Assembly (NCBI GenBank): GCA_025458525.1
Contig: JALOSF010000018.1
Span: 1-38,889 of the forward strand
DNA: 38,889 nt
Source: Cypionkella sp.
GTDB lineage: Bacteria; Pseudomonadota; Alphaproteobacteria; Rhodobacterales; Rhodobacteraceae
Direction of reading: 5' to 3'
The notes below the pieces were generated by a model that searched no databases, was not told the origin of the DNA, and saw only the letters and a program-made list of their open reading frames with translations. Made by a program: the position numbers and the translations under genes. Below, one piece after another: positions 2,945-38,114 of the stretch; the stretch's first letter is position 1; each line of letters starts with the position of its first letter.

Positions 2945-5900
2945 TCAGTCTTCCGGCAATTCCGCCATCAGACGGCGCAGATGATGGGCAAGGATCGTGA
3001 CATTCGGCGGTTGCAGGATCGACAGGTGGTCGCCTGGCACATCGATCACCTCAAATCCCGAGGCGGCCACCGACCCCCAGCCCAAGCCGTCGCGCGCACT
3101 TTCCGGGCTGTCAAAGATGTTTTCCTCGGCGCGAAAGATCGTCAGCGGCCGGTGGATCGGGCGCGCCTCATAGGCTTCGACCGCAAGTTCGGCCGCGACC
3201 ATGAAACTTTCCACCGTCATCTCGGCCGTCTTGCCGCGCTGCGCGAGCAGCTGCAGCCGCAGCTTGCGCGCGCGATAGATCACATCCTGCCAGCGGTTTG
3301 CCACGATGCCCATCAGATGCGACGGCCCGCGGCGGCGCAGCTGGCGCAGGTGCATGCCAAGGCGCGCCCGCCCCGACAGGCGCGACCGCCCGCCCGGTCC
3401 GGCGCTGTCGAACATCGCGATCACCCGCACCTCGCGCCCGTCGCGCAGCAATTGCTGGGCCAGTTCATAGGCCACATAGCTGGCCAGCGACACGGCGGCG
3501 AGTGAGATCGGTCCTTGCGGGAAATGCCGCTGGATTTCCGCGGCATAGGCGCGGGCGGTTTCGCGCACGCCAATCGGCGTGTCCTGCGCCAACAGCCCGA
3601 CGGTCAACCCGAACACCGGCTGATCGGTGCCAAGGGCCGCGGCCAGCGGGCGGAAATGTTCCTCGTTGCGGCCCAGGACATGGACCCCGAACAGCGGCGG
3701 GCGACTGCCCAGCGGCTGGATCGGCAGGATATAGCGCGGCCCCGCCTGCGCCGCGCGCAGCGCACGGGCCAGCGCGCGCGGCGTCGGGCGGCGGTGCAGA
3801 TCGGCCACCCCGAGGCGGTGGCCCAGATCGGCCTCGATCCGCCCGATCAGCTGCACCGCCAAAAGCGAGTGGCCGCCCAGATCGTGGAAATCATCCTCGT
3901 CGCCGACATGGGCAAGGCCGAGCGTTTCGGCCATCAGCGCCGCGATGCGCCGCGTTGCCGGATCATGGCTGGGCGCCGCGGGACCGGTCAGGGTGCCCGG
4001 ATCTGGCAGCGGCAGCGCGGCCATATCGATCTTGCCCCCCGGCGTGCGCACGAAATCCGACACCGCCACCAGCCCGGGCAGCATATGGGGCGGCAACTGA
4101 TCGACAAGCACCGCGCGCAAGGCCTCGAGGTCGGGCATCGGCTGGCCATCGGCCCCCGTCACCCAGGCGACCAGCCGCGCCTGCGGTGTTCCCGCCGCCA
4201 CTACATGCGCCAGCGCCCGGCCGACCGCCGCCTCGCGCTCCAGCACCCTTTCGACATGGCGCAGGTCGATGCGAAAGCCGCGCAGCTTGACCTGCCGGTC
4301 CTGACGCCCCAGGAAGGCAAGCGTGCCATCGGGCCGCCAGCGCGCCCGGTCGCCGGTGCGATAGATCTGGCCCTCGCCGTGAAAGCGGTCGGGGCGGAAT
4401 GCCTCGACGGTCTGCGCGTCATGGCCGATGTAGCCATCGCTGACCGCAAGTCCGCCGATCCACAATTCCCCCACCGCGCCCGGCGGCGCGAGCGAGCCAT
4501 CGGGCGCCAGAACATAGGCGCGGGCATGGCCGATCGGGCGGCCGATCGGAATATCCTCGCCCGCGGTCACGGGTCCGGCCTCGTGCAGGGTGCAGGTGAT
4601 CGTCGTCTCGGTCGGTCCATAGCCATTGAGCCAGCGCGGGCGTGGCGCGATACGTTGCCAGGTGGCCAGAACCCGCGGGCTGATCTGCTCGCCCCCCACC
4701 ACCACCAGCCGCACCGCAGGCGGCAGGGTCAGGCTGCTGCGCGCCATTTCATCGACCAGCACATGCCAGAAGGCCGTGGGCAGGTTCAGCACCGTGATCG
4801 AGTGTTGCGCGACCTGTTCCAGGAACACCCGCACCGATGTGGCCATTTCGGCATTGCGCAGGATCAGCTTGGCCCCGGCCAGAAGTGTCGGGATCACTTC
4901 CTCGATCGACACGTCGAAGGACAGGCTGGCAAATTGCAGCACATGGTCCGACGGGGTCAGGCCGAATTCGGCGATGATCGCGCTGGCATGGGCGCTGAGC
5001 GCCCGCATCGGCACCTTTACCCCCTTTGGCACCCCGGTGGAGCCGGAGGTGTAGATCACATAGGCAAGCCGGTCGGGATCGGGCGGCAGGATATCGGGTA
5101 TCTGGTCCGGCGCGACCGGCATGGCGGCCGTTGGCGCGATGACCCGCACATCCTCGGGCAGGTCAAGACCGCCCAGGTTCAGATCGGGTTGGGCCACGAT
5201 CAGCCGGGTGCCGCTGTCGATCAGCATGTGGCGTAGCACCGCCTCGGGGTAGGTCGGATCGAGCGGCAGAAAGGCCGCCCCCGCCCGCAGCACGGCAAGC
5301 ATGGCAAGGATGAACTCGGGGCTGCGCGGCAGGCAGATCGCCACGATGCGGCCCGGCCCGGCCCCGGCCTGCACCAGTCGGGCGCACAGGGCCGCCGCGC
5401 GGTCCTCGACTTCGGCGTAATCCAGGATCTCGCTTCGCCCCACCATGCTCAGCGCGCCGGCGCCGGCCCGGGTGTCGGTCACATCGGCCAGCCGCAGCGT
5501 GACGCAGGGGTCGGCGGGGGGAAGTCGGCGGTCGGGTCGGCCAAGCGCCAGCAGCGCCGCCTCCTCGGACCGGGGCAGCATCGTCAGATGGGTCAGCGGC
5601 GTGGTGGTGCCCGACTTGGCCAGCGCGGCCAGCATCTCGGCCATATGGGTCAGCATCATGCGCGCCCGTTCGGCGCTGACAGCCACCGGGTCATGTTCCA
5701 GAACCAGCAGCAGTTCCGCATCGCCATAGGCGGCAAGCGTCAGCGGCAGCGCGCCTTCCTCATGCAGGGCCACCCGGCGGCTGGCCCAGTCGCGGCCAAG
5801 GCTGCGCAGGCCCTCGTGCAGCGAGGCGCGCTCGAACATCACCATCGAATCGAACAGGGAAACGGTTCCGGGCAGGCCGCACCAATGCCGGATATCGGTC

Positions 5901-6913
5901 AGCGCCGCATGTTCATGCGCCCGAAGCTGCAACGCATCGCGCCGCAGCGCGCCAATGAAATCGTCCGCCTGCCGTGGCGGGCTGATCTGCACCGACATCG
6001 GCAGGGTGTTGATCAGGCAGCCGACGGTGCGTTCGGTGCCGGGCACGATGTGCCGCCCCGCGCGGGTGGTGCCGAACACCGCCGTGCGCCGCCCGGTCCA
6101 GCGCGCGACCACCAGCCCCCAGGCCGCCTGCACCATGGTGGCGAGTGTGGCCCCCGCCGCCTCGGCCCGTTCGACCAGCGCCTCGGTCAGCGCGGCGCTC
6201 AGGCGATGGTCCATCTGCGCCTTGCGCGCATGCGTCGTGTCTGCGCCGTCCTCGGTCAGCGGATTGGGCTGGTCGAACCCGTCCAGATAGCGGCGAAAGA
6301 ACGCCTGCGCCTCGGCGGTGTCCTTTGCCGCCAGACCCTTGGCATAGGCCAGAAATCCGGTCCGGGGCGGCGCGGGCAGGGGCTGGCCGTGCAGGGCGGC
6401 GAACACTTCCTCCAGCACGATTGCCATGCTGCGCCCGTCCACCATGGCGTGATGCACCGTCCAGACCATCACCGACCGCCGCGGCCCCAGATGCGCCAGA
6501 AGCACGCGCCAGGCCGGTCCTGCCTCCAGATCGACGCCCTGTTCGCGGTCGGCCTTGAGATAGGTGTCCAGCATCCCGTCAACCCGGCGCGGCGGCAGGG
6601 CCGACCAATCCTCGACCGCGACCTGCACCTCGACCCGGTCGCGCAGCACCTGCACCGGGGTGACACGGCGCCGCCACAGGATCGACAGCCGCAGCGCCTC
6701 GTGCCGCGCCGCCACCCTAGCCCAGGCCGCGCTCAGCGCCTCGGGCTCGACCACCTCGTCGTCCAGATGGACCACCACCTGTTCAAGGTTGACCCAAGGC
6801 CGCCCCGCCAGCGTGCTTTCATAGACCATGCCAAGCTGCAACGGCGTCAGCGGATGTTCGGTCAGGCCGGGGGCACCGGGGGGCAGGGGGGGGCTGTGCT
6901 GCGTCTCGCTCAT
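2945..6913 (-). CDS. single-module nonribosomal peptide synthetase (C-A-T-TE)
   Basis: This 1322-aa enzyme should activate one amino acid, condense it with an acyl donor, and release the product. Condensation domain: about residues 20-450, with LTPLQLGM and HHAMVDG (154-160). Adenylation domain: about 480-960, with YTSGSTGVPKG (from about 620), NGYGPTETT (about 761), YRTGDRARW, and GGKID with the late lysine. Carrier domain: DLGGHSLL with phosphopantetheine Ser1016. Thioesterase: about 1060-1320 with Ser1142, Asp1169 and His1296 as a plausible triad. The nucleophile elbow reads AVSLA, not GxSxG. By alignment to GrsA the specificity residues read D-V-E-N-V-G-G-I-T-(K). This faintly recalls N-hydroxyornithine codes, so substrate stays unassigned. 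The start overlaps the flippase stop (ATGA). No ornithine hydroxylase or phosphopantetheinyl transferase is visible. Confidence 0.92.
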   Translation of the reverse strand: MSETQHSPPLPPGAPGLTEHPLTPLQLGMVYESTLAGRPWVNLEQVVVHLDDEVVEPEALSAAWARVAARHEALRLSILWRRRVTPVQVLRDRVEVQVAVEDWSALPPRRVDGMLDTYLKADREQGVDLEAGPAWRVLLAHLGPRRSVMVWTVHHAMVDGRSMAIVLEEVFAALHGQPLPAPPRTGFLAYAKGLAAKDTAEAQAFFRRYLDGFDQPNPLTEDGADTTHARKAQMDHRLSAALTEALVERAEAAGATLATMVQAAWGLVVARWTGRRTAVFGTTRAGRHIVPGTERTVGCLINTLPMSVQISPPRQADDFIGALRRDALQLRAHEHAALTDIRHWCGLPGTVSLFDSMVMFERASLHEGLRSLGRDWASRRVALHEEGALPLTLAAYGDAELLLVLEHDPVAVSAERARMMLTHMAEMLAALAKSGTTTPLTHLTMLPRSEEAALLALGRPDRRLPPADPCVTLRLADVTDTRAGAGALSMVGRSEILDYAEVEDRAAALCARLVQAGAGPGRIVAICLPRSPEFILAMLAVLRAGAAFLPLDPTYPEAVLRHMLIDSGTRLIVAQPDLNLGGLDLPEDVRVIAPTAAMPVAPDQIPDILPPDPDRLAYVIYTSGSTGVPKGVKVPMRALSAHASAIIAEFGLTPSDHVLQFASLSFDVSIEEVIPTLLAGAKLILRNAEMATSVRVFLEQVAQHSITVLNLPTAFWHVLVDEMARSSLTLPPAVRLVVVGGEQISPRVLATWQRIAPRPRWLNGYGPTETTITCTLHEAGPVTAGEDIPIGRPIGHARAYVLAPDGSLAPPGAVGELWIGGLAVSDGYIGHDAQTVEAFRPDRFHGEGQIYRTGDRARWRPDGTLAFLGRQDRQVKLRGFRIDLRHVERVLEREAAVGRALAHVVAAGTPQARLVAWVTGADGQPMPDLEALRAVLVDQLPPHMLPGLVAVSDFVRTPGGKIDMAALPLPDPGTLTGPAAPSHDPATRRIAALMAETLGLAHVGDEDDFHDLGGHSLLAVQLIGRIEADLGHRLGVADLHRRPTPRALARALRAAQAGPRYILPIQPLGSRPPLFGVHVLGRNEEHFRPLAAALGTDQPVFGLTVGLLAQDTPIGVRETARAYAAEIQRHFPQGPISLAAVSLASYVAYELAQQLLRDGREVRVIAMFDSAGPGGRSRLSGRARLGMHLRQLRRRGPSHLMGIVANRWQDVIYRARKLRLQLLAQRGKTAEMTVESFMVAAELAVEAYEARPIHRPLTIFRAEENIFDSPESARDGLGWGSVAASGFEVIDVPGDHLSILQPPNVTILAHHLRRLMAELPED

Positions 6914-8283
6914 CCTGCGCCCCCGAATAGCGTCAAGAGATCGAGGATCGCCGATCGGTCGATGAACAGCGCCAGTGCCGCAATGCCAAGGCCAAGTGCG
7001 GCAAACACCGCATCATGCAGCGCATCCCAGGCCCCGTGCCGCCGCGCAAGCCAGATCAGCATCGGATAGATTGCGATCCCCGCCAGCGCCTGCCCCGCCA
7101 GCGCGCCGACAAGCCCCATCCATTCCGCCCCAAGGATCAGACCGGCGACAAGGCACAGCGCCCGCGCCGCCGTCAGGCCAAAGTAGTTGCGGCTGTCGCC
7201 GGCGGCCAGCGCCGACTGGTCATAGGTCATCCCGATCACGACCGGAATCTGCGCGGCCGCGATCAGGACCAGAATGGCCCCCGCCGCCGAATAGCGCGGA
7301 TCATAAAGCAGATCGACCAAGGCTTCGCCCGCAAAGATCATCACGGACAGAAGCGCGAACACAGCCCCCGTCAGGGCAAAGCGCATCCGGCGGATCTTGG
7401 CGAAATTCTCGGCCGAGGCCGCGGGCGGGCGTTCGCGATAGAGCGGGATCAGGATCTTGCTGCCGATGGTCTGACCCAGAAGCAGCGGAAAGGACGCAAG
7501 GAAAAAGCCGATGTTGTAAAGGCCCAGCTGTTCCAGCGTCAGGTATTTGCCCAAGATCGCCTTGTCGCCCTGCGCCACCAGAAAGCCGCAGGCGGTGGAC
7601 AGGAACAGCCAGAACCCGAAATGCATCAGATCGCGCCCCGCCTGATGTTCCCAGCGCATCCGGCTTTTCGGGCCGGGCAGGAACACGGTCACCAGCACCA
7701 GCCGCACCAGCGCCGACACGATCCAGCCCGCGACCAGCGCCCAGACCGATTCGGTGGCCCAGGCCAGCACCACCATGGTGACGATCCCCGTCGCCTGCGA
7801 GATCAGGTCCAGCGCCGTCAGCCGCCCCAGCCGCAGGTGCCGCGCGGCCGTGTCCACCTTTGTCGGCTCCAGCCCGTGCAACAACAGCGACAGGCCGGCC
7901 ACCGGCAGCAGCCACATCAACTCGGGCTGGCCATAGAACAGCGCCGCCGGATAGGCGATGGCCGCCGAGGCAAGCCACAGCACCACCCCGCGCAGCACCT
8001 GGATCGTATAGGCCGTGTCCAGAAAGGCCGGATCATCCCCCCGCGGATGGCGCAGGATCGACGGGTGGGTGCCCATGTCGGAAAACATCGTCAGTCCGAC
8101 GATGAACACCGTGACAAGGGCCATCAGCCCGAAGGCCTCGGGAAACAGAAGCCGCGTCAGGATCAGGTTCGAGGCCAGCCGCATCGCCTGTGACGCGCCA
8201 TAGCCAAGCGCGGTCCAGGCCGAGCCACGCATGACGCGGGCCAAAAGCCCGTCGCCGCGCAATCCTGTGATGACTGGGCTCAT
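6910..8283 (-). CDS. MOP-superfamily flippase (Wzx/polysaccharide transporter type)
   Basis: A 457-aa integral membrane protein with about 12-14 hydrophobic segments. The N-terminus (GSAWTALGYGASQAMRLASN, then LILTRLLFPEAFGLMALV) is typical of oligosaccharide flippases that turn undecaprenyl-linked sugars across the inner membrane. Also typical are GDKAILGKYLTLEQLGLYNI in mid-protein and the C-terminal MIWLARRHG. The stop codon lies inside an ATGA with the NRPS start, so the two are probably translated together. No glycosyltransferase or polymerase is nearby, so the cargo is open: it could be a lipid-linked glycan carrying the NRPS-derived residue, or the NRPS product itself. Start 8283 has only a close AAGG (2 bases away); a start at internal Met19 is possible. 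Confidence 0.85.
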   Translation of the reverse strand: MSPVITGLRGDGLLARVMRGSAWTALGYGASQAMRLASNLILTRLLFPEAFGLMALVTVFIVGLTMFSDMGTHPSILRHPRGDDPAFLDTAYTIQVLRGVVLWLASAAIAYPAALFYGQPELMWLLPVAGLSLLLHGLEPTKVDTAARHLRLGRLTALDLISQATGIVTMVVLAWATESVWALVAGWIVSALVRLVLVTVFLPGPKSRMRWEHQAGRDLMHFGFWLFLSTACGFLVAQGDKAILGKYLTLEQLGLYNIGFFLASFPLLLGQTIGSKILIPLYRERPPAASAENFAKIRRMRFALTGAVFALLSVMIFAGEALVDLLYDPRYSAAGAILVLIAAAQIPVVIGMTYDQSALAAGDSRNYFGLTAARALCLVAGLILGAEWMGLVGALAGQALAGIAIYPMLIWLARRHGAWDALHDAVFAALGLGIAALALFIDRSAILDLLTLFGGAG

Positions 8284-27582: not shown

Positions 27583-30500
27583 TTGTGCATTCGGGGGTTG
27601 CAAAACGACGGGGGCTGCGCGCTGAACGCGATCGATGACCAGATGTTTCGCGGCTCCGATGCCGAACAGGCGCTGCTGGCCTTTGTCGCGGCGGTTGCCG
27701 CGCTCGCGGGGGCAGAGGGTGCGGTGCAGCGCGGGCTGGACCGTCTGGCCGAGGGGCTGGGCGTGCCCCTGTCGCTTGCCATCGGGCCCGAGGTCTGGAC
27801 GGCGGGGCAGGTGCTGCCCGGCGCCGATGGCCCGGCGCTGACGGTTGCGGGGGCGCGGCTGGACGGGGTGCCCGCTGCGGCCAGCGCCGGCTGCGCACGG
27901 GCGGCCGACCTGTTCCTGCGGGCCGCCCAAGAGGCGCGGGCGCGCGAACAGGTGGCGCAGGCGCGGGCCGCGGCGTCGGGCGAGGTGCTGTTCGAGGTGA
28001 CAGGCGAGGGCGCAGACGGGCCTTGGCGCTCGCCCGCGGCGGCGGCGCTGTGGGCCGATCGTCCGCAGGTTCGGCAAGCCCTGGCCCCCGCGATCAGGCA
28101 GGCGCTTGGCGCGCCAGACGGTGCCGAGGTGCGTGCCGTGGTGTCGAAGGCGGGGCCGGCGCAGGTGTTTGGCGTGGCGGCCTTTCCCGCGGGGCGCCCC
28201 GGCCTGTGGCTGATCCGGCTGATCGATCGCAGCGAGGCCGAGGCGGCGGCCGCGCGGATCGACCGGCGCGATCTGCTGCTGCGCCGCCTGTTCGACCTGT
28301 CGCCTGTCGGGGTGGTGATGATCGATTACGACACCGGGCATATCATCGAGGCGAACTGTGCCTTTCTGGCCTTTGGCGACTGGTCGCGCGACGATCTGAT
28401 CGGGGCTCCGTTGCAAGGCGTTCTGGCCCATGGTCAAGCGTCCACCGTGCGCGCCTGCCTGGCCGAATTGCGCCGCACCGGGCGCTTTGGCCCGCTGGAG
28501 CAAACCCTGCTGCGGCCCGATGGGTCCAGTTTCCCCGCCGTGGTGCGCGGTCTTGTGCTGGCGGGGGGCCTTGGGCATCAGATCATCTGGCTGTTGATCG
28601 AGGATGTCAGCCATCAGCGCGCCGCCCTGTCCGAAGTGGCGGCCGTGCGCGACGAGGCCTTGCGCGCGCGCACCGAATTGCACACGGCGGTGCAGGCCCT
28701 GCCGCATGGCTTCATGCTGCTGGATGAGGATGACCGCATCGTTCTGGTGAACGACCAGATGGCCACGGTCTATCCCGAGCTTGCCCCCGCGATGCGACCG
28801 GGCCGCCGCTATGAGGATGTGCTGCGTGACGGCGTGGCGCGGGGCGTCTTTCCCGAGGCCGAGGGCCGGGAGGAGGAGTTCATCCAGACGATCCTGCAAG
28901 GCCGGCGCGATCCGATGTTCGAACGCCTCACCGATCTGCGCGGCGGGCGGGTGATGCGGGTGATCGAACGGGTGACACCGACCGGCGGGCGGGTGGGGCT
29001 GCGCATCGATGTGACCGCCGAGCGCGAAAGTGCGCGCCGCATCTTCGATGTGATCGAAGGATCGCGCGCCGGCACCTGGGAATGCGATTTCGTGACCGGA
29101 CAGAACTGGGTCAACGACCGTTGGGCCGAGATGATCGGCTGGACGCGGGCCGAGCTGGAGCCGATCACGCTGCACAGTTGGCAGGCGCTGTTGCATCCCG
29201 ATGACCGCGAGATGACCGAACGCACCATGGCGCGCGTGATGCGCGGCGAAACCGATCAGAGCGATTATGTGTTTCGGCTTCGGCATCGGGACGGGCATTG
29301 GGTCTGGGTGCAGTCGCGCGGCCATGTCTCGCGCCGTGACGCGGCGGGCAACCCGACCCGCATGTCGGGCGTGCATGTGGATATTTCTGACCTCAAGGCC
29401 ACCGAGCAGCGGCTGGAGCATATCATCGAGGGGGCCGAGGCGGGCACCTGGCATCATGACATGCGGGCTGGCCTGTGCCATGTGAACGAGCTTTGGGTCG
29501 AGATGCTTGGCCATGATCTCGACTCGCTTGGCCCGATCACGGACGAAGTCTGGTGCGACATGATGCATCCCGATGACTGGGAGATGCTGAACCGCAACAT
29601 GCAGGAGCGTTTCGCCAGCCGCACCTGGCAATTCGAGGACGAACTGCGTCTGCGTCACAGGGACGGGCACTGGGTCTGGGTTCTGTCGCGCGGGCGCGTC
29701 ACCATCTGGGATGCGGCGGGCCAGCCCATCGCCACGTCGGGCGTGCATCTGGACATCAGCGCCCGCAAGCAGCTGGAGCTGGAGCTGGAGCGCGAACGCG
29801 ATTTTCTGGCCACGCTGATGGAGACTTCGGTTTCGGGGATCATGGCGGTGGACAGCGAGGCGCGCATCGTCTTTGTCAACCGCGCGGTGCAGGGCATTCT
29901 TGAAGTCCCGGCCGAGGCCTTGCTGGGGCAGGTCTGCGACCCGGGCGCGCTTGGGCTTTACACACTCGACCACGAGCCTTTGCCCTTTGCAGCCCTTCCC
30001 TGCCGCCTCGCGCAGGCGACGGGGCAGGTGATCCGCGATCAGCGGCTGCGGCAGAAGCTGCCCGACGGGCGCATCAAGGTTCTGTCGGTGAATGCGGCCA
30101 CCCTGCCCGAGGCGGGGCTGGCGGCGCGGGTGGTCTGCACCATCACTGATGTGACGGCGGCGGCGCAGGCCGAGGATGCGCTGCGGGCGGCGATGGACCG
30201 GGCCGAGACGGCCAACCGCGCGAAATCGCAGTTCCTCGCCAATATGAGCCATGAATTGCGCACGCCGTTGAACGGTGTTCTGGGCATGACCGAATTGCTG
30301 GCAGGCACGGTCGATGACCCGGAAAAGCGCGCGATGCTGGAGACGATCCGCGAATCCGGCGTGCATCTGCTGTCGATCGTGAATGACCTGCTCGATCTGG
30401 CCAAGATCGAAAGCGGCAAGCTGACGCTGGATGTGGCGCCGCTGCGCCTGACCGATCTTGCGGCACGGGTGGAGGTGATGCACGGGCTTGCCGCGCGCAG

Positions 30501-31344
30501 CAAGGGGGTTGCCCTGACGGTGGAGTGCGGGCCGGGCGCCGAGCGGTTGCGCCGCGCCGATGGCAAGCGGCTGTTGCAGGTGCTGCACAATCTGGTGGGC
30601 AATGCGGTGAAGTTCACCGAAAGCGGCTTTGTCGCCATCCACATCGCGGAAGACGCCGCAGACCCGGATCGGGTGATGATCTGTGTGGCCGATACCGGCA
30701 TCGGGATGAGCGATGACCAGGCCGCCCAGGTGTTCGAGGAGTTTACCCAGGCCGACGGGTCGATCACCCGTCGTTTTGGCGGCACCGGGCTGGGCCTGCC
30801 CATCGTGCGGCGGCTGGTCGGCCTGATGGCGGGCGAGGTCACGCTGTCGAGCGCCGAGGGGCAGGGCACGACGGTCGCGATTGTCCTGCCCATGCCGCGC
30901 TGCGAGGCGGTGCGCGACGCAGGCCCCGGCCCGATGCCGCCGGTGCTGCGGCCTGGCCTGCGCGCGCTTTTGGCCGAGGACAACCCGACCAACCGTCTGA
31001 TCATGCGCGCCCTGCTGACCCGACTGGGCGCCGAGGTGACGCTGGCCTGCGACGGGGACGAGGCCGTGGACCAGTGGCAGCCCGGGGCCTTTGATCTGGT
31101 CTTGCTGGATATTTCCATGCCGCGCAAGGATGGGCTGACCGCCTTGCGCGAGTTGCGGCAAAAGGCGGGCGGGCTCGACTTGCCGCCGGTTCTGGCGGTC
31201 ACGGCCAATGCGATGTCGGCTGACCACCGGCTGTATCGCGAGGCGGGCTTTGCCGATGTGGTGACAAAGCCCGTCACCGCCGAGGCGATGCGCGCCGCGA
31301 TTGCCCGGGTGCAACTGACCATTGATCCGCTGCCTGTTCGCTAG
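27583..31344 (+). CDS. cytosolic hybrid sensor histidine kinase with five PAS domains
   Basis: A protein of up to 1253 aa. No transmembrane segment is visible, so it probably senses an internal signal. Residues about 30-200 are a GAF-like or degenerate N-terminal region. PAS-like domains lie at about 227-345, 365-480, 487-605, 611-730 and 741-865. The third and fourth are close copies, both with LRHRDGHWVWV and SGVHxDIS. The HisKA box FLANMSHELRTPLNG holds His890. The ATPase has NAVKFTESG, VADTGIGMS and FGGTGLGLPIV. A receiver domain (about 1126-1240) has acceptor Asp1176 in VLLDISMPRKDG. No HPt domain follows, so another protein must take the phosphate. The start is unsure: TTG 27583 is the longest, ATG 27643 the first ATG; neither has a good ribosome site. 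Confidence 0.85.
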   Translation: MCIRGLQNDGGCALNAIDDQMFRGSDAEQALLAFVAAVAALAGAEGAVQRGLDRLAEGLGVPLSLAIGPEVWTAGQVLPGADGPALTVAGARLDGVPAAASAGCARAADLFLRAAQEARAREQVAQARAAASGEVLFEVTGEGADGPWRSPAAAALWADRPQVRQALAPAIRQALGAPDGAEVRAVVSKAGPAQVFGVAAFPAGRPGLWLIRLIDRSEAEAAAARIDRRDLLLRRLFDLSPVGVVMIDYDTGHIIEANCAFLAFGDWSRDDLIGAPLQGVLAHGQASTVRACLAELRRTGRFGPLEQTLLRPDGSSFPAVVRGLVLAGGLGHQIIWLLIEDVSHQRAALSEVAAVRDEALRARTELHTAVQALPHGFMLLDEDDRIVLVNDQMATVYPELAPAMRPGRRYEDVLRDGVARGVFPEAEGREEEFIQTILQGRRDPMFERLTDLRGGRVMRVIERVTPTGGRVGLRIDVTAERESARRIFDVIEGSRAGTWECDFVTGQNWVNDRWAEMIGWTRAELEPITLHSWQALLHPDDREMTERTMARVMRGETDQSDYVFRLRHRDGHWVWVQSRGHVSRRDAAGNPTRMSGVHVDISDLKATEQRLEHIIEGAEAGTWHHDMRAGLCHVNELWVEMLGHDLDSLGPITDEVWCDMMHPDDWEMLNRNMQERFASRTWQFEDELRLRHRDGHWVWVLSRGRVTIWDAAGQPIATSGVHLDISARKQLELELERERDFLATLMETSVSGIMAVDSEARIVFVNRAVQGILEVPAEALLGQVCDPGALGLYTLDHEPLPFAALPCRLAQATGQVIRDQRLRQKLPDGRIKVLSVNAATLPEAGLAARVVCTITDVTAAAQAEDALRAAMDRAETANRAKSQFLANMSHELRTPLNGVLGMTELLAGTVDDPEKRAMLETIRESGVHLLSIVNDLLDLAKIESGKLTLDVAPLRLTDLAARVEVMHGLAARSKGVALTVECGPGAERLRRADGKRLLQVLHNLVGNAVKFTESGFVAIHIAEDAADPDRVMICVADTGIGMSDDQAAQVFEEFTQADGSITRRFGGTGLGLPIVRRLVGLMAGEVTLSSAEGQGTTVAIVLPMPRCEAVRDAGPGPMPPVLRPGLRALLAEDNPTNRLIMRALLTRLGAEVTLACDGDEAVDQWQPGAFDLVLLDISMPRKDGLTALRELRQKAGGLDLPPVLAVTANAMSADHRLYREAGFADVVTKPVTAEAMRAAIARVQLTIDPLPVR

Positions 31345-31348
31345 GCAC

Positions 31349-31369
31349 AGCGGCCAGAGGGCTGCCGCT
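31349..31369 (+). terminator. weak hairpin after the hybrid kinase
   Basis: AGCGGC (31349-31354) pairs with GCCGCT (31364-31369), and an inner CAG/CTG can extend the stem around AGGG with a bulged C. It begins five bases after the kinase stop. No T-run follows, so it is only a possible terminator. Confidence 0.35.
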
Positions 31370-31443
31370 TCATGCTCAATTCCGATGCGCGGCGGCGGCG
31401 TGAAGGGATTGCTTGTGGCGAATCGAGCTTCGGTTTTACCGTA

Positions 31444-31462
31444 TGGTCAAAGGACAAGACCA
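31444..31462 (+). promoter_or_regulatory. inverted repeat before the BMP transporter operon, possible operator
   Basis: TGGTC (31444-31448) and GACCA (31458-31462) are perfect five-base inverted arms nine bases apart, ending 17 bases before the start codon at 31480. The position, just ahead of the ribosome site of a five-gene operon, fits a repressor site. Arms this short occur often by chance. The rest of 31345-31479 holds the hairpin listed above and no promoter I can defend. Confidence 0.28.
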
Positions 31463-31479
31463 AACAGGGGGTGACAGAC

Positions 31480-32499
31480 ATGATCGGACGCAAACACGCG
31501 GTATCGCGGCGGGGGATGATCCTTGGCGGCGGTGCGCTGGGCTTGGGGGCGGCGTTCCTGCCGCGGGCGGTTCTGGCGCAAGACGCGCTCAAGGTCGCGG
31601 GCATTTACACCGTGCCGGTGGAACAGCAATGGGCGGGCCGCATCCATCAGGCGGCGGAGGCGGCAAAGGCGGCGGGGGCGGTCGATTACGTCTTTACCGA
31701 GAATGTCGCCAATACCGATTATCCGCGCGTGATGCGTGAATACGCCGAAAGCGGCGTCAAGCTGATCGTGGGCGAGATTTTCGGGGTCGAGGCAGAGGCG
31801 CGCGAAGTGGCCGCCGAATACCCGGAAGTGGCCTTCCTGATGGGGTCGAGCTTCATGCCCGATGCCGCCGCCAATCCCAATCTGGCGGTGTTCGACAATT
31901 ACATTCAGGATGCCAGCTATCTGACCGGGATCATCGCGGGCGCGATGACCAAGACCGGCAATATCGGCATGGTCGGCGGCTTTCCGATCCCCGAGGTGAA
32001 CCGCCTGATGCATGCCTTCATGGCGGGCGTGCGCGAAACCCGGCCCGACGCCACCTTTCAGGTCACGTTCATCGGGTCGTGGTTCGACCCGCCAAAGGCC
32101 AAGGAAACCGCTTTTGCGATGATCGAGGCGGGGGCTGACATGCTTTATGCCGAGCGTTTCGGCGTGGCAGATGCCGCCAAGGAAAAGGGCGTTCTGGCGA
32201 TTGGCAACGTGATCGACACGCAGGCCGATTATCCCGAAACGGTTGTCGCCTCGGCGCTGTGGCATTTCGAGCCAACCTTCGAGGCGGCGGTCGCGGCCGT
32301 CAAGGCCGGCACCTTTGCCGCCGAGAACTATGGTGTCTATAGCTATATGAAGGCGGGCGGGTGCTCGCTTGCGCCGCTGGGCACGTTTGAGGGCAAGGTG
32401 CCTGCGGCGGCGATGGAACTGGTCGCGGCGCGGCAGGCCGCGATCATGGACGGCAGCTTTACCGTGGCCATCGACGACAGCGAGCCGAAATCGTCGTGA
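31480..32499 (+). CDS. BMP-family (PnrA-like) substrate-binding protein
   Basis: A 339-aa periplasmic binding protein of the basic membrane protein family, whose characterised members bind purine and other nucleosides. The start at 31480 follows AGGGGGTGA. The N-terminus has twin arginines (SRRGMILGGGALGLGAAFLP, then AVLAQ), so export by Tat is possible. There is no lipobox Cys, unlike PnrA of spirochaetes. Fold blocks are KVAGIYTVPVEQQWAGRIHQ, IVGEIFGVEAEAREVA, DASYLTGIIAGAMTKTGNIG and GVLAIGNVIDTQ. The stop overlaps the GTG of the ATPase gene. With a deaminase at the end of the operon, a nucleobase or nucleoside is the likely ligand. Confidence 0.87.
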   Translation: MIGRKHAVSRRGMILGGGALGLGAAFLPRAVLAQDALKVAGIYTVPVEQQWAGRIHQAAEAAKAAGAVDYVFTENVANTDYPRVMREYAESGVKLIVGEIFGVEAEAREVAAEYPEVAFLMGSSFMPDAAANPNLAVFDNYIQDASYLTGIIAGAMTKTGNIGMVGGFPIPEVNRLMHAFMAGVRETRPDATFQVTFIGSWFDPPKAKETAFAMIEAGADMLYAERFGVADAAKEKGVLAIGNVIDTQADYPETVVASALWHFEPTFEAAVAAVKAGTFAAENYGVYSYMKAGGCSLAPLGTFEGKVPAAAMELVAARQAAIMDGSFTVAIDDSEPKSS

Positions 32500-34025
32500 G
32501 CTTTGGACAAGACGGGGCGGAGGGTGTCCTCCGCCTCGAGGGCATCACAAAACGCTTTGGCGCGCTTGTCGCCAATGACGGCATCAGCCTGACGCTGCAC
32601 CGGGGCGAGGTTCTGGCGTTGCTTGGCGAAAACGGCGCGGGCAAGACGACGCTGATGAACATCCTGTTCGGTCATTATGTGGCCGATCAGGGCAGCGTTT
32701 CGGTCTTTGGCCAGCCCTTGCCCCCCGGTCAGCCAAAGGCTGCGCTGGCGGCGGGCGTTGGCATGGTGCATCAGCATTTCACCTTGGCCGAGCAGATGAG
32801 CGTGCTCGACAACATCACGCTTGGCACGCAAAGCCTGTGGCGGCTTGGCCTTGGCCAGGGGGCGGCGCGGGCCCGGGTGGCACAGCTTTCGCGCGATTTC
32901 GGGCTGGCGGTTGACCCTATGGCGCGGGTGGCCGATCTGTCGGTGGGCGAACGCCAGCGGGTTGAAATCCTCAAGGCGTTGTATCGCGATGCGCGCATCC
33001 TGATCCTGGATGAGCCGACCGCCGTGCTGACGCCGCAAGAGGCGGAGGCGCTGTTCCAGACCCTGCGGCTTGCCACCGCGCGCGGGCTGTCGGTGATCTT
33101 CATCAGCCACAAGCTGCACGAGGTGATGGGCCATTCCGACACCTGCGTGGTGCTGCGCCACGGCCGGGTGGTAGGGCAGGTCGCCACGCGCGACACCGAC
33201 CGCGCGCGTCTGGCCGCGATGATGGTGGGCGGCGATCTGGCCGAGGCGAGTGTCGCCCCCGGCGTGGCGGGGCCTGTGCGCTTGTCGCTGCGCGGGGTGC
33301 AGGCCGGGCCATTGCGGGATGTGACGCTGGATTTGCGCGGCGGCCAGATCACCGGGCTTGCGGGCGTGTCGGGCAACGGGCAGGCGGCGCTGGCCGATCT
33401 GATCGGCGGGATGCGGGCGCCAGAGCGCGGCGAGATGCGCATCGAAGGTCAGGCCGTCACCGCCTGGACCCCGCGCGCGGCGCTGGCCGCCGGGGTGGGC
33501 CGTATCCCCGAGGATCGGCACAAGACCGGAACCGTGGGCGATTTCAGCCTTGCCGAAAACGCGGTGCTGGAAACCTATGCCAGCCGCTTTGCGCGCGGCG
33601 GCTTCGTCGATTGGGCCGCCGTGCGTCGCCATACCGAGGCGCTGATTTCGGGGTATGACGTGCGCTGTCCGGGGCCAGAGGCGCGCATCCGGCTGCTGTC
33701 GGGCGGGAACATGCAAAAGCTGATCCTTGGCCGGGTGCTGGAGGAGGCGCCGGGCATCCTGATCGCCAATCAGCCGGTGCGCGGGCTGGATGTCGGGGCG
33801 ATTGCCTATGTGCACGCACAGTTGGTTGCGGCGCGCGATGCGGGGGCGGCGGTTCTGTTGATTTCGGAAGATCTGGACGAGGTGATGGGTCTGTCGGATG
33901 AGATCCATGTGATCAGCGAGGGCCGGCTGTCGCCCGGCTTTGCCCGTGGCAGTCTTGGGCCGGCGCAGATCGGGCTGTGGATGGCAGGGCAGGGGTTTTC
34001 GGACGGGGGCGCCGATGCGGCTTGA
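32496..34025 (+). CDS. double-domain ABC ATPase of the nucleoside/BMP importer
   Basis: A 509-aa protein with two ABC domains, as in sugar and nucleoside importers (RbsA/NupO type). The first has Walker A GENGAGKTT, signature LSVGERQRVEI and Walker B ILDEPTAVLTP. The second is degenerate, as is normal for the class: GVSGNGQAAL for Walker A, signature LSGGNMQKLILGR, and ANQPVRGLDVGAI for Walker B. It should power uptake through the two permeases that follow. The GTG start at 32496 overlaps the binding-protein stop (GTGA), and its 3' end overlaps the next gene by 11 bases. Confidence 0.9.
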   Translation: MSFGQDGAEGVLRLEGITKRFGALVANDGISLTLHRGEVLALLGENGAGKTTLMNILFGHYVADQGSVSVFGQPLPPGQPKAALAAGVGMVHQHFTLAEQMSVLDNITLGTQSLWRLGLGQGAARARVAQLSRDFGLAVDPMARVADLSVGERQRVEILKALYRDARILILDEPTAVLTPQEAEALFQTLRLATARGLSVIFISHKLHEVMGHSDTCVVLRHGRVVGQVATRDTDRARLAAMMVGGDLAEASVAPGVAGPVRLSLRGVQAGPLRDVTLDLRGGQITGLAGVSGNGQAALADLIGGMRAPERGEMRIEGQAVTAWTPRAALAAGVGRIPEDRHKTGTVGDFSLAENAVLETYASRFARGGFVDWAAVRRHTEALISGYDVRCPGPEARIRLLSGGNMQKLILGRVLEEAPGILIANQPVRGLDVGAIAYVHAQLVAARDAGAAVLLISEDLDEVMGLSDEIHVISEGRLSPGFARGSLGPAQIGLWMAGQGFSDGGADAA

Positions 34026-35058
34026 ACCTGTGGCGCAGCCGGGGCTGGCCCGGCAGATCGGCTTTCCGGCGCTGGCGCTGCTGGCCACGCTGGGGGTGGG
34101 CATGATCTTGGCCGCGATCGCGGGCGCCGATCCCTTTGCCGTTCTGGGGCAGATCGTGATCGGCGCCGTCGGATCGCGGCTGGCGCTGCTGGAAACGCTG
34201 AACCGCGCGACGCCGCTGATCTTTACCGGGCTGGCCATCGCGGTGGCCTTTCGCGCCAAGCTGTGGAACATCGGGGCCGAGGCGCAGCTTTACGCAGGCG
34301 CCATCGTGACGGTCGCGCTTGGCACCGGGGTGCTGGGCGGGCCGGTGGTTTTGCCGATCTCGGCGCTGGCGGCGATGCTGGCCGGGGCCTTGGTCTTGCT
34401 GGGGCCTGTGCTTCTCAAGGTTCGGCTGGGCGTGGACGAGGTGGTGACGACGCTGCTGTTCAACTTCATCATGGCGCTGTTTGTCAGCTATCTGCTGGAA
34501 GGCCCGATGAAGGACCCGATGGGCATGGGCTGGCCAAAGTCGCCCGCCCTGATCCCCGAGGCGCGCTTGCCGCGGATGGCCGAAGGCCTGCGGCTGCATT
34601 GGGGCTTTGGTCTTGCGCTGATCTCGGCGGTGGGGGTCTGGGTGATCCAGACCCGCACCACGCTGGGGTTCGAGATGCGGGCGGTGGGCGCGAACCTGCG
34701 CGCGGCCCGCTTTGCGGGGATGCCGGTGACATCGGTGCTGATCAAGACCGCGCTGCTTTCGGGCGGGCTGGCCGCACTGGCGGGCTGGGCGCAGGTGGCG
34801 GGGGTCAAGGGGCATCTGTCGGCCGATCTGTCGCCCGGATTTGGCTATACCGGGATCATCGTGGCGATGCTGGCGCTGCTGCATCCGCTGGGCGTGGTGG
34901 TCAGCGCGCTGTTCGTGGCGGGGGTGTTTGTCGGCGCCGATGCGATGAGCCGGGCCGCGGGCGTGCCGACCTATATCGCCGACATGCTGTTGGCGGCGGC
35001 GCTGTTGTTCATGGTTTTGGCGCTTGCGCTGACACGGGTGCGGGTGGTGCGCGGATGA
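34015..35058 (+). CDS. nucleoside-type ABC permease, first subunit
   Basis: A 347-aa inner-membrane permease of the BPD_transp_2 (RbsC/YufP) family with about eight to nine hydrophobic segments. Family marks are LNRATPLIFTGLAIAVAFRA, KLWNIGAEAQLYAGAIV and LGVDEVVTTLLFNFIMAL, as well as MRAVGANLRAARFAGMPV near residue 220. I start at ATG 34015 (MRLEPVAQPG), which has a GGGGGC stretch upstream and overlaps the ATPase stop by 11 bases; the frame is open to 33940 but that part reads as ATPase shadow. It pairs with the permease at 35114. Confidence 0.9.
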   Translation: MRLEPVAQPGLARQIGFPALALLATLGVGMILAAIAGADPFAVLGQIVIGAVGSRLALLETLNRATPLIFTGLAIAVAFRAKLWNIGAEAQLYAGAIVTVALGTGVLGGPVVLPISALAAMLAGALVLLGPVLLKVRLGVDEVVTTLLFNFIMALFVSYLLEGPMKDPMGMGWPKSPALIPEARLPRMAEGLRLHWGFGLALISAVGVWVIQTRTTLGFEMRAVGANLRAARFAGMPVTSVLIKTALLSGGLAALAGWAQVAGVKGHLSADLSPGFGYTGIIVAMLALLHPLGVVVSALFVAGVFVGADAMSRAAGVPTYIADMLLAAALLFMVLALALTRVRVVRG

Positions 35059-35113
35059 CGGGGGCTGCACGGGACCGCACGCCTGTCGCAGGCCAGAGTG
35101 GGAGAGGGGCGCC

Positions 35114-36052
35114 ATGATCGAGATACTTCTGTCGGCCAGTTTCTGGGCCGCGGTGCTGCGGATCGCGTCACCCCTGATCTTTGCCACGATGGGCGCGCTG
35201 ATCTGCGAGCGGGCCGGTGTGTTGAACCTTGGCATCGAAGGGATCATGGTGATCGGCGCCTTTGTCGGGTGGATGGCGGTCTATCTTGGCCTGCCGCTTT
35301 GGGGCGGGGTGGCGGTGGCCTTTGCCGCGGGGGCAGCCATTGGCCTGTTGCATGGCATTCTGGTGGTGCCCTTCGGGCTGAGCCAGCATGTGGTGGGGCT
35401 GGGGATCACGCTTCTGGCCACCGCGACCGCCTATTTCGCCTATCGCCTGGCCCTGCCGCAGGTGACGACCCCGCCCAAGATCGAGCCGTTCCAGCCTTGG
35501 GAGGTGCCGCTGCTGTCGGATTTGCCCTTGGTCGGGCAGGCGCTGTTCGCCCAGACGCCGCTCACCTATGCCGCCTTTGCCTGCGCGGGGCTGGTGGCCT
35601 TTGTGCTTTATCGCACGCCGCTTGGGTTGGCGTTGCGGGCGGTGGGGGAAAACCCCGCGGCGGTCGAGGCGCAGGGGGTTTCGGTGACGGGCCTGCGGCT
35701 GGGGGCGGTGATGGTGGGATCGGGGCTGATGGCGGTGGGGGGCAGTTTCCTGACGCTGTCGGCTTTTTCGTCGTTCTTTTTCGAAATGGTGAACGGGCGC
35801 GGCTGGGTCTGTATCGCGCTGGTGGTGTTCGGGGCCTGGCGCCCGGGCAAGGCGGTGCTGGGCGCGCTGCTGTTTGCCGGGTTTGACGCGCTGCAAATCC
35901 GGTTGCAGCAGACGCCGGTCGGGGCGGTGGTCCCCTATCAGCTGTTCCTGATGCTGCCTTATGTCTTGTCCATCCTTGCGCTTGTGGTCATGTCGCGGCG
36001 CGCACAGGTTCCGGCGGCGCTTATGGTGCCCTATGCAAAGGGAGAGCGGTGA
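35114..36052 (+). CDS. nucleoside-type ABC permease, second subunit
   Basis: A 312-aa permease of the same family (YufQ/NupQ-like), partner of the 34015 gene. Marks are ASPLIFATMGALICERAGV, NLGIEGIMVIGAFVGWMAV, LSQHVVGLGITLLATA, ALRAVGENPAAVEAQGVSV and GWVCIALVVFGAWRPGKA. GGGAGAGGGG upstream of ATG 35114 is a good ribosome site. The 55 bases between the permeases hold only this site. The TGA stop shares one base with the ATG of the deaminase gene (TGATG). Confidence 0.9.
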   Translation: MIEILLSASFWAAVLRIASPLIFATMGALICERAGVLNLGIEGIMVIGAFVGWMAVYLGLPLWGGVAVAFAAGAAIGLLHGILVVPFGLSQHVVGLGITLLATATAYFAYRLALPQVTTPPKIEPFQPWEVPLLSDLPLVGQALFAQTPLTYAAFACAGLVAFVLYRTPLGLALRAVGENPAAVEAQGVSVTGLRLGAVMVGSGLMAVGGSFLTLSAFSSFFFEMVNGRGWVCIALVVFGAWRPGKAVLGALLFAGFDALQIRLQQTPVGAVVPYQLFLMLPYVLSILALVVMSRRAQVPAALMVPYAKGER

Positions 36053-37317
36053 TGTTCGATCTGATCGTCAAGGGCGGCACCCTGCCCGATGGCCGGGTGG
36101 CCGATATCGGGATTCGTGGCGACAGGATCGTCGAGGTCGGTCGGATCGACGCGCAGGCGGGATTTGAGATCGATGCCACGGGCGATCTGGTCTGCCCGCC
36201 CTTTGTCGATCCGCATTTCCATATGGATGCGGTGCTGTCTTACGGCCTGCCGCGGGTCAATGCCTCTGGCACGCTGTTGGAAGGCATCAGCCTGTGGGGC
36301 GAATTGCGCGAGATTGCAACGGTGGAGGAGATGGTCGCGCGGGCCTTGCGCTATTGCGACTGGGCGGTCAGCAGGGGGTTGCTTGCCATCCGCACCCATG
36401 TGGACACCACGCCCGACCATCTGCGCGGTGTGGAGGCGATGCTGGAGGTGAAGCGGCAGGTTGCCCCTTACCTTGATCTGCAACTGGTGGCCTTTCCGCA
36501 GGACGGGCTCTATCGCAGCCCGACGGGGCGGCAGAACGTTCTGCGCGCGCTCGACATGGGGGTCGATGTGGTGGGCGGCATCCCGCATTTCGAGCGCACG
36601 ATGGACGAAGGGGCGGAGTCCTTGCGCGATCTGGGCCGCATCGCCGCCGAACGCGGGCTGATGTGGGATGTGCATTGCGACGAGACCGATGACCCGATGA
36701 GCCGCCATGTCGAAACGCTGGCGCGCGAGGTGACGCGGCATGGCTTGGGCGGGCGGGCGGCGGGCAGCCATCTGACATCCATGCATTCGATGGACAATTA
36801 TTATGTGTCGAAACTGATCCCGCTGATCGCGGAATCGGGGATGTGCGCGATCCCCAACCCGTTGATCAACATCACGCTTCAGGGACGGCACGACACCTAT
36901 CCCAAACGCCGGGGTCTGACACGGGTCAAGGAATTGCAGGCCGCCGGTGTCACGGTGGGGTGGGGGCAGGATTGCGTGCTGGACCCCTGGTATAGCCTGG
37001 GGACCGCCGACATGCTGGACGTGGCCTTCATGGGCCTGCATGTGGCGCAGATGACCCATCCGGCCGAGATGGCCCGGTGTTTCGACATGGTCACGACCGA
37101 AAACGCCCGCATCATGGGGCTGGATCAGCTGTGCCTGCGCCCGGGGGCGCTTGCGTCGCTGGTGGTGCTCGATGCGGGCAACCCGGTCGAGGCGCTGCGC
37201 CTGCGGCCCGACCGGCTGGCCGTGATCTCGAAGGGCCGCATCGTGGCCCGTCAGGCGCGCAACGATGCCCGGCTGACCCTGCCCGGGCGTCCCGCCGCCG
37301 TGCGTCGCCGCCACTGA
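36052..37317 (+). CDS. CodA-like deaminase, probable 5-methylcytosine deaminase
   Basis: A 421-aa metal-dependent amidohydrolase. Numbered from ATG 36052, all E. coli CodA active-site residues are found with a constant offset of six: His55 and His57 (PHFHMD), Gln150 (FPQDG), His208 and Glu211 (VHCDET), His240 (GSHLTSMHS) and Asp307 (GQDCVLDPWY). The exception is Asp314 of CodA, which is Cys308 here. Loss of that Asp was used by Hitchcock and colleagues (2014) to find 5-methylcytosine deaminases, including one from Rhodobacter sphaeroides. The likely reaction is 5-methylcytosine to thymine and ammonia, with cytosine as possible alternative. GGGAG seven bases upstream favours ATG 36052 over GTG 36049. 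It is the last gene of the BMP transporter operon. Confidence 0.82.
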   Translation: MFDLIVKGGTLPDGRVADIGIRGDRIVEVGRIDAQAGFEIDATGDLVCPPFVDPHFHMDAVLSYGLPRVNASGTLLEGISLWGELREIATVEEMVARALRYCDWAVSRGLLAIRTHVDTTPDHLRGVEAMLEVKRQVAPYLDLQLVAFPQDGLYRSPTGRQNVLRALDMGVDVVGGIPHFERTMDEGAESLRDLGRIAAERGLMWDVHCDETDDPMSRHVETLAREVTRHGLGGRAAGSHLTSMHSMDNYYVSKLIPLIAESGMCAIPNPLINITLQGRHDTYPKRRGLTRVKELQAAGVTVGWGQDCVLDPWYSLGTADMLDVAFMGLHVAQMTHPAEMARCFDMVTTENARIMGLDQLCLRPGALASLVVLDAGNPVEALRLRPDRLAVISKGRIVARQARNDARLTLPGRPAAVRRRH

Positions 37318-37334
37318 TCCGCCCGGCGCCTGTG

Positions 37335-37363
37335 CCCGAGGCATTTCAAATGCTTCGGGTTTT
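37335..37363 (+). terminator. intrinsic terminator after the deaminase operon
   Basis: CCCGAGGCATTT (37335-37346) and AAATGCTTCGGG (37348-37359) pair over 12 positions, one of them a G-T wobble, with a tight loop in which the innermost pairs probably open. TTTT (37360-37363) follows directly. It starts 18 bases past the deaminase stop and closes the BMP-transporter/deaminase operon. Confidence 0.85.
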
Positions 37364-37373
37364 CTGACGTCGC

Positions 37374-37388
37374 TAAACCATTCCTTCA
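37374..37388 (+). promoter_or_regulatory. CtrA-box-like motif before the chemotaxis operon
   Basis: TAAA, seven bases (CCATTCC), then TTCA: six of eight matches to the TTAA-N7-TTAA CtrA box of alphaproteobacteria, with the exact spacing. It lies between the terminator and the STAS gene, 68 bases before the start codon. CtrA controls motility genes in many Rhodobacterales. Two mismatches make this weak. The rest of 37318-37455 shows no clear -35/-10 pair. Confidence 0.28.
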
Positions 37389-37455
37389 GCCTTTGGACGT
37401 TACCCCTGTGCAGGCAGAGGGTCGCAACCGCCCCTCTAACGCGGGTCGGAGGGTC

Positions 37456-37749
37456 ATGGGAACGATGCGGACGATCGAACTTGTTGCAAGGGTCACACCG
37501 GATTCGGCGCAAGCCTTGTGGTATGAACTGGAAAACGGGCTGGAATCGGCGGGCGGCAAGGGCGCCATCAGCCTGAATGCCGCGGCGGTCCGACATCTGA
37601 GCGCGGCCGCGTTGCAGGTGCTGCTGGTCGCGTCCAGACGGGCCGAACGCGATGGAACACGGTTGAAAATCGTCAGCCCGTCCCCGGAATTCGTGGAAAG
37701 CCTGCGCCTGATGGGGGCAAGCGCGCTGGTTGCGGAGGGCCGGTCATGA
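37456..37749 (+). CDS. STAS-domain protein of the chemotaxis operon
   Basis: A 97-aa protein that is essentially one STAS domain (anti-sigma-factor-antagonist fold): GGKGAISLNAAAVRHLSAAA followed by LQVLLVASRRAERDGTRLKI. The Ser in RHLSAAAL is where such proteins are phosphorylated, so a switch role is possible. Small STAS proteins at the head of che operons are known in alphaproteobacteria (CheS-type partners of CheA), but this assignment is by context. I start at ATG 37456 because GGAGG lies five bases upstream; an in-frame ATG at 37393 would add 21 residues unlike the domain. The stop overlaps the cheY start (ATGA). Confidence 0.8.
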   Translation: MGTMRTIELVARVTPDSAQALWYELENGLESAGGKGAISLNAAAVRHLSAAALQVLLVASRRAERDGTRLKIVSPSPEFVESLRLMGASALVAEGRS

Positions 37750-38114
37750 GCTTGCGCATCCTTGCGGTGGATGATTCCCTGACCATGCGGGAAATGTTGC
37801 GCCAGACCCTGACCGAGGCGGGGTTCGATGTCGTGCTGGCCGAAGACGGGCTTGACGCGCTGGACCGGCTGCCCGCCGCAGACCCCGACCTGATCCTGAC
37901 CGATCTGAACATGCCAAAGATGGATGGCTTTGGCCTGATCGATGCCGTGCGCAAGGGGGCGGTGTCGGCGCGCGTGCCGATCCTTGTGCTGACCACCGAA
38001 AGTGCGGCGACATTGAAGGATCGGGCACGCTCTGCCGGGGCAACGGGATGGATCACCAAGCCGTTCGACGAACAATCCCTCGTTTCAACCATTCGCCGCG
38101 TCGCGGCGCTGTGA
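37746..38114 (+). CDS. cheY: single-domain response regulator CheY
   Basis: A 122-aa receiver domain, the size of a flagellar-motor CheY. The acidic pair Asp9-Asp10 (LAVDDSLTMRE), acceptor Asp53 (LILTDLNMPKMDG), the Thr in LVLTTESA and the Lys in WITKPFDE are all in place. It should be phosphorylated by the CheA encoded next and act on the flagellar motor or as a phosphate sink. Its ATG overlaps the STAS stop (ATGA), and cheA begins seven bases after its stop. Confidence 0.92.
   Translation: MSLRILAVDDSLTMREMLRQTLTEAGFDVVLAEDGLDALDRLPAADPDLILTDLNMPKMDGFGLIDAVRKGAVSARVPILVLTTESAATLKDRARSAGATGWITKPFDEQSLVSTIRRVAAL

Follow-up and report, generated by a model that had tools for sequence, protein, structure and literature searches.

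What might a bacterium gain by keeping a relative of the cytosine deaminase CodA directly behind an ATP-binding cassette (ABC) importer? The question is raised by a stretch of DNA of 38,889 nucleotides from Cypionkella sp. (contig JALOSF010000018.1 of assembly GCA_025458525.1; 'the window' below means this whole stretch), in which positions 31480–37317 of the forward strand carry five tightly packed genes: four for an ABC importer (a BMP-type binding protein, an ATPase and two permeases) and one for a CodA-family deaminase. Our answer, to which we would give a probability of roughly 60%, is that this unit serves nutrient salvage, by importing a free cytosine-type base and then deaminating it. 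In the periplasm, the BMP-type substrate-binding protein (SBP), probably exported by the twin-arginine route, would capture the free base, which would then enter the cell by way of the two permeases and their ATPase, and the metal-dependent CodA-family hydrolase would remove its 4-amino group as ammonia, leaving a uracil-type base (thymine, if the cargo is 5-methylcytosine). For the uptake of methylated cytosine by bacteria, a route to our knowledge still to be found, the unit is a concrete and widespread candidate that comes with a clear test.

The deaminase (421 residues, from an ATG at 36052 to 37317 on the forward strand; Pfam Amidohydro_3) belongs to the curated NCBIfam subfamily PRK07572 (NF005748), 'cytosine deaminase', which it matches at 735.6 bits against a cut-off of 438; the list of open reading frames offers an alternative GTG start at 36049, one codon upstream of that ATG. 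Its alignment to Escherichia coli CodA is gap-free over query residues 39–385, so that an offset of six holds throughout, and H55, H57, Q150, H208, E211, H240, D307 and W313 correspond to CodA H61, H63, Q156, H214, E217, H246, D313 and W319, all of them active-site residues of CodA. The equivalent of CodA Asp314 in this alignment is Cys308, with its codon at 36973–36975 (+) adjoining that of Asp307 at 36970–36972, just as an earlier note on this DNA, made from the letters alone, had read it together with the constant offset. An AlphaFold model of the enzyme has a mean predicted local distance difference test (pLDDT) score of 87.2, but falls below 50 at residues 276–288 and 310–316; it superimposes on CodA with a template modelling (TM) score of 0.92 at 40% identity, and on the 5-methylcytosine deaminase of Klebsiella pneumoniae with a TM-score of about 0.90.

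Cys308 is a character of a whole clade. A Cys occupies the Asp314 position in 19/19 homologues at 53% identity or more (the window gene included), in all 80 named loci among the matches listed for relatives of the window deaminase, and in 42/42 distinct genes of the high-identity group in a sample of the phylum; that group has 53 members, again counting the window gene, and the 45 loci fetched from it represent these 42 Cys-type genes, ten members being left out. The same sample gave 48 lower-identity CodA-like matches, and in the 24 that were fetched the position holds Ser in 14 and Asp in ten; Ser is also the residue found there in the solved Klebsiella 5-methylcytosine deaminase (4r7w). Our deaminase tree, with 59 rows including 33 Cys types and 14 Ser types, places the Cys types in one clade (support 100/100) and the Ser types in another (99/97), with the Cys clade apart from the Asp enzymes, so that loss of the Asp appears in two lineages. 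Two outgroup branches of this tree, at 6.8 and 10, are very long; a single Asp row (L200) lies outside the rest, and the join between Asp and Ser types is weak (90/72); the solved Klebsiella enzyme is absent from the rows, and its best match is a Ser-type row (L182). Neighbourhoods differ as well, since a cytosine/purine symporter cluster, whose three scanned members are all PF02133, lies near Asp and Ser types in 15 of 24 loci, as against none of 16 Cys-type loci. What emerges is a clade of CodA relatives that is linked to an ABC importer and not to a symporter, and that has a Cys at the very place where 5-methylcytosine deaminases, as far as they are known, are marked by loss of the Asp.

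How general is this tie? Across the order we searched 292 genomes, one of them the window's own, for the deaminase at E <= 1e-90 and for the SBP at E <= 1e-60, and found the former in 93, the latter in 89 and both in 87, with six genomes holding the deaminase only and two the SBP only (Fisher p 3e-64, in a set of related genomes that are not independent of one another). The two genes are adjacent and on one strand in 86 of the 87 genomes that have both, either with the SBP 4.5–6.1 kb upstream of the deaminase (arrangement A, 61 genomes) or with the SBP directly downstream of it (arrangement B, 25 genomes), and the existence of two gene orders argues that the pairing itself is under selection, as against plain inheritance of one arrangement. 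A full importer stands upstream in 56 of the 80 named loci, a partial one in a single locus and none in 17, the remaining six being cut by contig ends; among the matches listed, Rhizobiales and Caldimonas also have the full importer upstream. In the phylum sample a BMP importer lies within about 7 kb in 8/16 Cys-type loci. In two of the six deaminase-only genomes (L140:7317–12329 and L141:3976–9190) the Cys-type deaminase follows directly after a spermidine/putrescine-like ABC importer of an unrelated class, so the deaminase seems to have changed importer class there, and a third (L144) has a distant BMP-type importer nearby. The recurrence of Cys308 and of the importer linkage in relatives is beyond chance, and the importer–deaminase unit is real and strongly conserved. 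Its parts are of known kinds, and their tightly conserved pairing looks undescribed, in that no account of it was found in the literature searched, which covered few subscription journals. One SBP gene (L068:3360–4355) has a single in-frame stop near its 3' end, reflecting either a sequencing error or a decayed copy.

Within the window, the parts of the unit and their coupling can be read off directly. The importer set is complete by Pfam: a BMP-type (PnrA-like) SBP of 339 residues (31480–32499 (+); Bmp, 111.9 bits), whose best solved relative is AtzT; an ATPase of 509 residues with two nucleotide-binding domains (32496–34025 (+); two stretches of ABC_tran); permease 1 (34015–35058 (+); BPD_transp_2, 132.8 bits), with its ATG 11 nt inside the ATPase gene; and permease 2, of 312 residues (35114–36052 (+); BPD_transp_2, 122.1 bits). 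Three of the four junctions overlap, by 4 nt between SBP and ATPase, by 11 nt between ATPase and permease 1 and through a TGATG between permease 2 and the deaminase, and 55 nt separate the two permeases. Behind the deaminase, a 12-bp hairpin followed by TTTCTG (37334–37360 (+)) is a likely intrinsic terminator; the segment 37318–37372 folds at -23.8 kcal/mol (z -3.1), and none of 200 shuffles did equally well. A terminator pattern scan, which found seven terminator-like sites against 5.5 expected, missed this hairpin, and we therefore regard it as strong but with a short T-run. Both the TGATG coupling and the terminator closing the five-gene unit had been claimed in the earlier note, and both hold, the latter as a likely one. 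A promoter scan was uninformative (one found, 1.2 expected), and a known RNA element was set aside, no Rfam family reaching its gathering threshold in 31300–37500. We also considered, and rejected, the putative vitamin B6 ABC importer (NCBIfam NF047927-30), whose four models score 94.4, 417.4, 167.2 and 194.5 bits, far under their cut-offs of 400, 670, 400 and 465; the second of these figures is for ABC_ATP_B6, the ATPase's best NCBIfam match.

The cargo, the direction of flow, the range of substrates and the role of the Cys are what we infer from all this, and the binding protein is the natural place to begin. It opens with a twin-arginine-like signal, SRRGM, as read from its sequence, and AtzT is said to carry a twin-arginine signal too (PMC6834077). 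The solved structures nearest to the SBP model are AtzT, guanosine-bound Lbp, entry 3s99, adenosine-bound BmpD and PnrA, with riboflavin-binding RfuA ranking lower. By alignment, the pocket would be lined by W51, I100, F101, E172, W201, Y223 and E225, the last two being uncertain. We compared the pockets of the window SBP and 56 named arrangement-A SBPs (57 in all), together with four arrangement-B SBPs, with that of AtzT. The guanine site of AtzT includes Ser97, Glu165, Trp194 and Asn220. Glu165, Trp194 and Phe98 of AtzT are kept in 57/57 arrangement-A proteins, and in the same 57 a Glu aligns with Asn220 and a Tyr with Asn218 (the alignment of 218–220 being uncertain), while Ser97 is replaced by Val, Ile or Ala. 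Such a pocket would be expected to hold a flat heterocycle between aromatic residues, one different from guanine, and would suit a cytosine. A cytosine-like base is indeed the likely cargo because the nearest relatives of the SBP bind bases or nucleosides and its own pocket is partly altered. Relatives of the SBP in Mesorhizobium, at 47–48% identity, lie away from the deaminase (the neighbour scanned at L145 is a 3-oxoadipyl-CoA thiolase) and are therefore uninformative on cargo.

Could the cargo instead be a purine or a triazine, as for AtzT, with an aminotriazine or isoguanine as the substrate of the enzyme? AtzT has affinities of about 110 nM for guanine, 2.2 uM for 2-hydroxyatrazine, 2.5 uM for adenine and no better than 620 uM for other nucleobases (PMC6834077); a CodA-family amidohydrolase gene comes after its importer genes too, the window deaminase has AtzC among its structural relatives, and the arrangement-B SBPs keep Ser97. 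Set against this are the replacement of Ser97, and probably of Asn218 and Asn220, in the 57 arrangement-A SBPs, and the much stronger resemblance of the deaminase to CodA than to AtzC, so we consider such a cargo unlikely.

Granting a cytosine-type base, is it cytosine itself or its 5-methylated form? The Cys-for-Asp314 deaminase is likely to take 5-methylcytosine as well as cytosine; 5-methylcytosine as the preferred substrate is plausible, with plain cytosine fitting about as well, and 5-methylcytosine as a dedicated substrate is possible. A plain cytosine system, in which the importer brings in cytosine, the enzyme makes uracil and 5-methylcytosine is at best a side substrate, is a serious contender at somewhat less than even odds. 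Each of the 101 matching genomes of the phylum sample has one CodA-type enzyme at E <= 1e-60 (with at most four candidates scored per genome), which also counts against salvage of the kind we propose, and the Cys type may therefore simply fill the CodA slot; in another set of 61 genomes no classical CodA came up, with no match there between 149 and 450 bits. The plain cytosine reading sits less easily with the loss of the Asp in two clades, fixed in their sampled members, with the solved Ser enzyme being a 5-methylcytosine deaminase, and with the 15/24 against 0/16 split in neighbouring symporters.

The earlier note had gone further and proposed uptake and deamination dedicated to 5-methylcytosine. 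In its fullest form, this would be a dedicated unit, spread widely through alpha- and betaproteobacteria, whose importer, with a pocket reshaped from a purine site to fit a methylated cytosine, has co-evolved with the deaminase of the Cys clade; methylated DNA in the surroundings would then serve bacteria as a source of nitrogen and thymine. We hold this to be rather doubtful. In its favour, Asp314 is lost as in 4r7w, and methylcytosine is not bound by CodB, the permease for cytosine (PMC9379551), so that another uptake route would be needed. In addition, a review places the Klebsiella 5-methylcytosine deaminase with the enzymes that prefer the alkylated base (PMC13054789). These three points also speak for the broader salvage of a cytosine-type base that we favour. 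Yeast is known to take up 5-methylcytosine, since its fcy2 mutants fail to do so (PMC12299217), and Rsp0341 of Rhodobacter sphaeroides, taken up below, would be a precedent for the enzyme. On the other side, no sequence feature separates a C5-methyl from a C5-H cargo, and a single CodA-type enzyme per sampled genome suggests a general cytosine slot. What stands of the proposal is a CodA relative without Asp314, tied to a BMP importer whose SBP has base and nucleoside binders as its closest kin; a preference for 5-methylcytosine over cytosine, and an importer dedicated to it, are the parts that stay conjectural. As to its premise that bacterial 5-methylcytosine deaminases were found by loss of this Asp, the Klebsiella enzyme does lack the residue, but its best match is of the Ser clade and not of the Cys clade.

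A further thought is creatinine salvage, in which a creatinine importer would feed a creatinine deaminase. The CodA protein of Corynebacterium glutamicum reportedly deaminated 5-methylcytosine in vitro. Its gene codA is called a creatinine deaminase (PMC1578569); hydantoinase B genes are present in the window's own genome, another genome has one immediately upstream of the unit (L043:1569–3245), and many Mesorhizobium loci have genes like those for sarcosine and dimethylglycine oxidases in the vicinity of the deaminase. These last neighbours are, however, the same with and without the importer, and plain synteny is therefore likely to explain them. Hydantoinase B occurs in only one of the 140 loci searched (including 24 Asp/Ser-type loci and seven without the deaminase) and not in the unit in the window, which led us to set a creatinine pathway aside, and the best-matching solved kin of the SBP bind bases and nucleosides. 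We therefore rate creatinine as very unlikely.

Returning to salvage of a cytosine-type base, several further observations weigh against it and should be taken together. The window gene lies in the Cys clade, apart from the Ser clade to which the solved 5-methylcytosine deaminase is closest. Despite enough upstream DNA, 17/80 named loci lack an adjoining importer (a related SBP is found elsewhere in 13 of these 17 genomes, or in 14/19 with two contig-cut ones, mostly at 47–50% identity), and in 8/16 Cys-type loci of the phylum sample a BMP importer is absent from the 7 kb or so around the deaminase. In the pocket, the mapping of residues 218–220 crosses a two-residue gap, and another alignment pairs that stretch differently; the four arrangement-B SBPs keep Ser97, with Phe at 218 and, at 194, either Trp or Phe; and Glu at 220 is found also in two SBPs of Mesorhizobium encoded away from this deaminase. 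Finally, PreA is linked to the unit in 0/140 loci, and both arrangement-B loci scanned, as well as two rhizobial plasmids, have an amidase gene inside the unit.

This amidase deserves a word of its own. Amidase-signature genes (PF01425) stand between SBP and ATPase at L130:5080–6393, L134:9377–10735 and L117:5054–6466, and a gene annotated as amidase stands in the same place at L226:2010–3458. The substrate of such an enzyme may be an N-acylated base such as N4-acetylcytosine, or a later product. As for the fate of the deaminated base, the window's own genome (87% complete) has a PreA above cut-off adjoining a PreT-like gene (below the NCBIfam cut-offs), and the product could enter general pyrimidine breakdown by this route; the genome also has one NCS1-type permease elsewhere. 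The unit is flanked by a gene for a large PAS-rich hybrid histidine kinase (27583–31344) and by STAS and CheY-like genes (37456–38114); there is no GntR- or IclR-type regulator among these flanking genes, and some relatives have one adjoining the unit. Far from the unit, the window also carries a single-module nonribosomal peptide synthetase (2945–6913 (-); condensation, AMP-binding, carrier and thioesterase), with a polysaccharide-type membrane protein gene (6910–8283, same strand) on its upstream side. Confirmation of the salvage role would allow names to be given to many genes whose present annotation goes no further than 'amidohydrolase family protein' or 'BMP family protein'.

How, then, does the unit compare with systems that are already known? 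Like E. coli CodBA, it combines the cytosine-deaminase fold and active-site residues with a transporter beside the deaminase, whereas CodA has Asp314 in place of the Cys and is served by an NCS1 symporter, not by an ABC importer with a binding protein. The Klebsiella pneumoniae 5-methylcytosine deaminase (4r7w/4r85/4r88) shares the CodA fold and the loss of Asp314, but has Ser rather than Cys, and Ser types form a separate clade with a symporter gene near 10/14 of them. Closer to home, Rsp0341 of Rhodobacter sphaeroides was reportedly described as a 5-methylcytosine deaminase by Hitchcock and colleagues in 2014; it comes from a related bacterium and presumably belongs to the Cys clade, and R. 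sphaeroides is not among the 80 named loci drawn from the matches listed. Rsp0341 would be the nearest experimental precedent, and would make the window unit less new than the earlier note supposed. PnrA, BmpD and Lbp have the same fold as the window SBP (TM-scores of 0.72–0.77), yet they share only 15–24% identity with it and their titled complexes are with nucleosides, not with free bases. AtzT and its importer on plasmid pADP-1 have the same four-gene order, again followed by a CodA-family amidohydrolase, and the same Glu165, Trp194 and Phe98; they differ in that AtzT binds guanine and has Ser97, Asn218 and Asn220 where the window SBP has other residues (with the 218–220 alignment uncertain). 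The amidohydrolase of this pADP-1 stretch of importer and enzyme genes (L178:10491–16738) is PRK07583-like, at 293.5 bits against a cut-off of 403, and only distantly related to the window deaminase, so that the layout of a BMP-type importer followed by a CodA-family enzyme is not confined to the unit described here.

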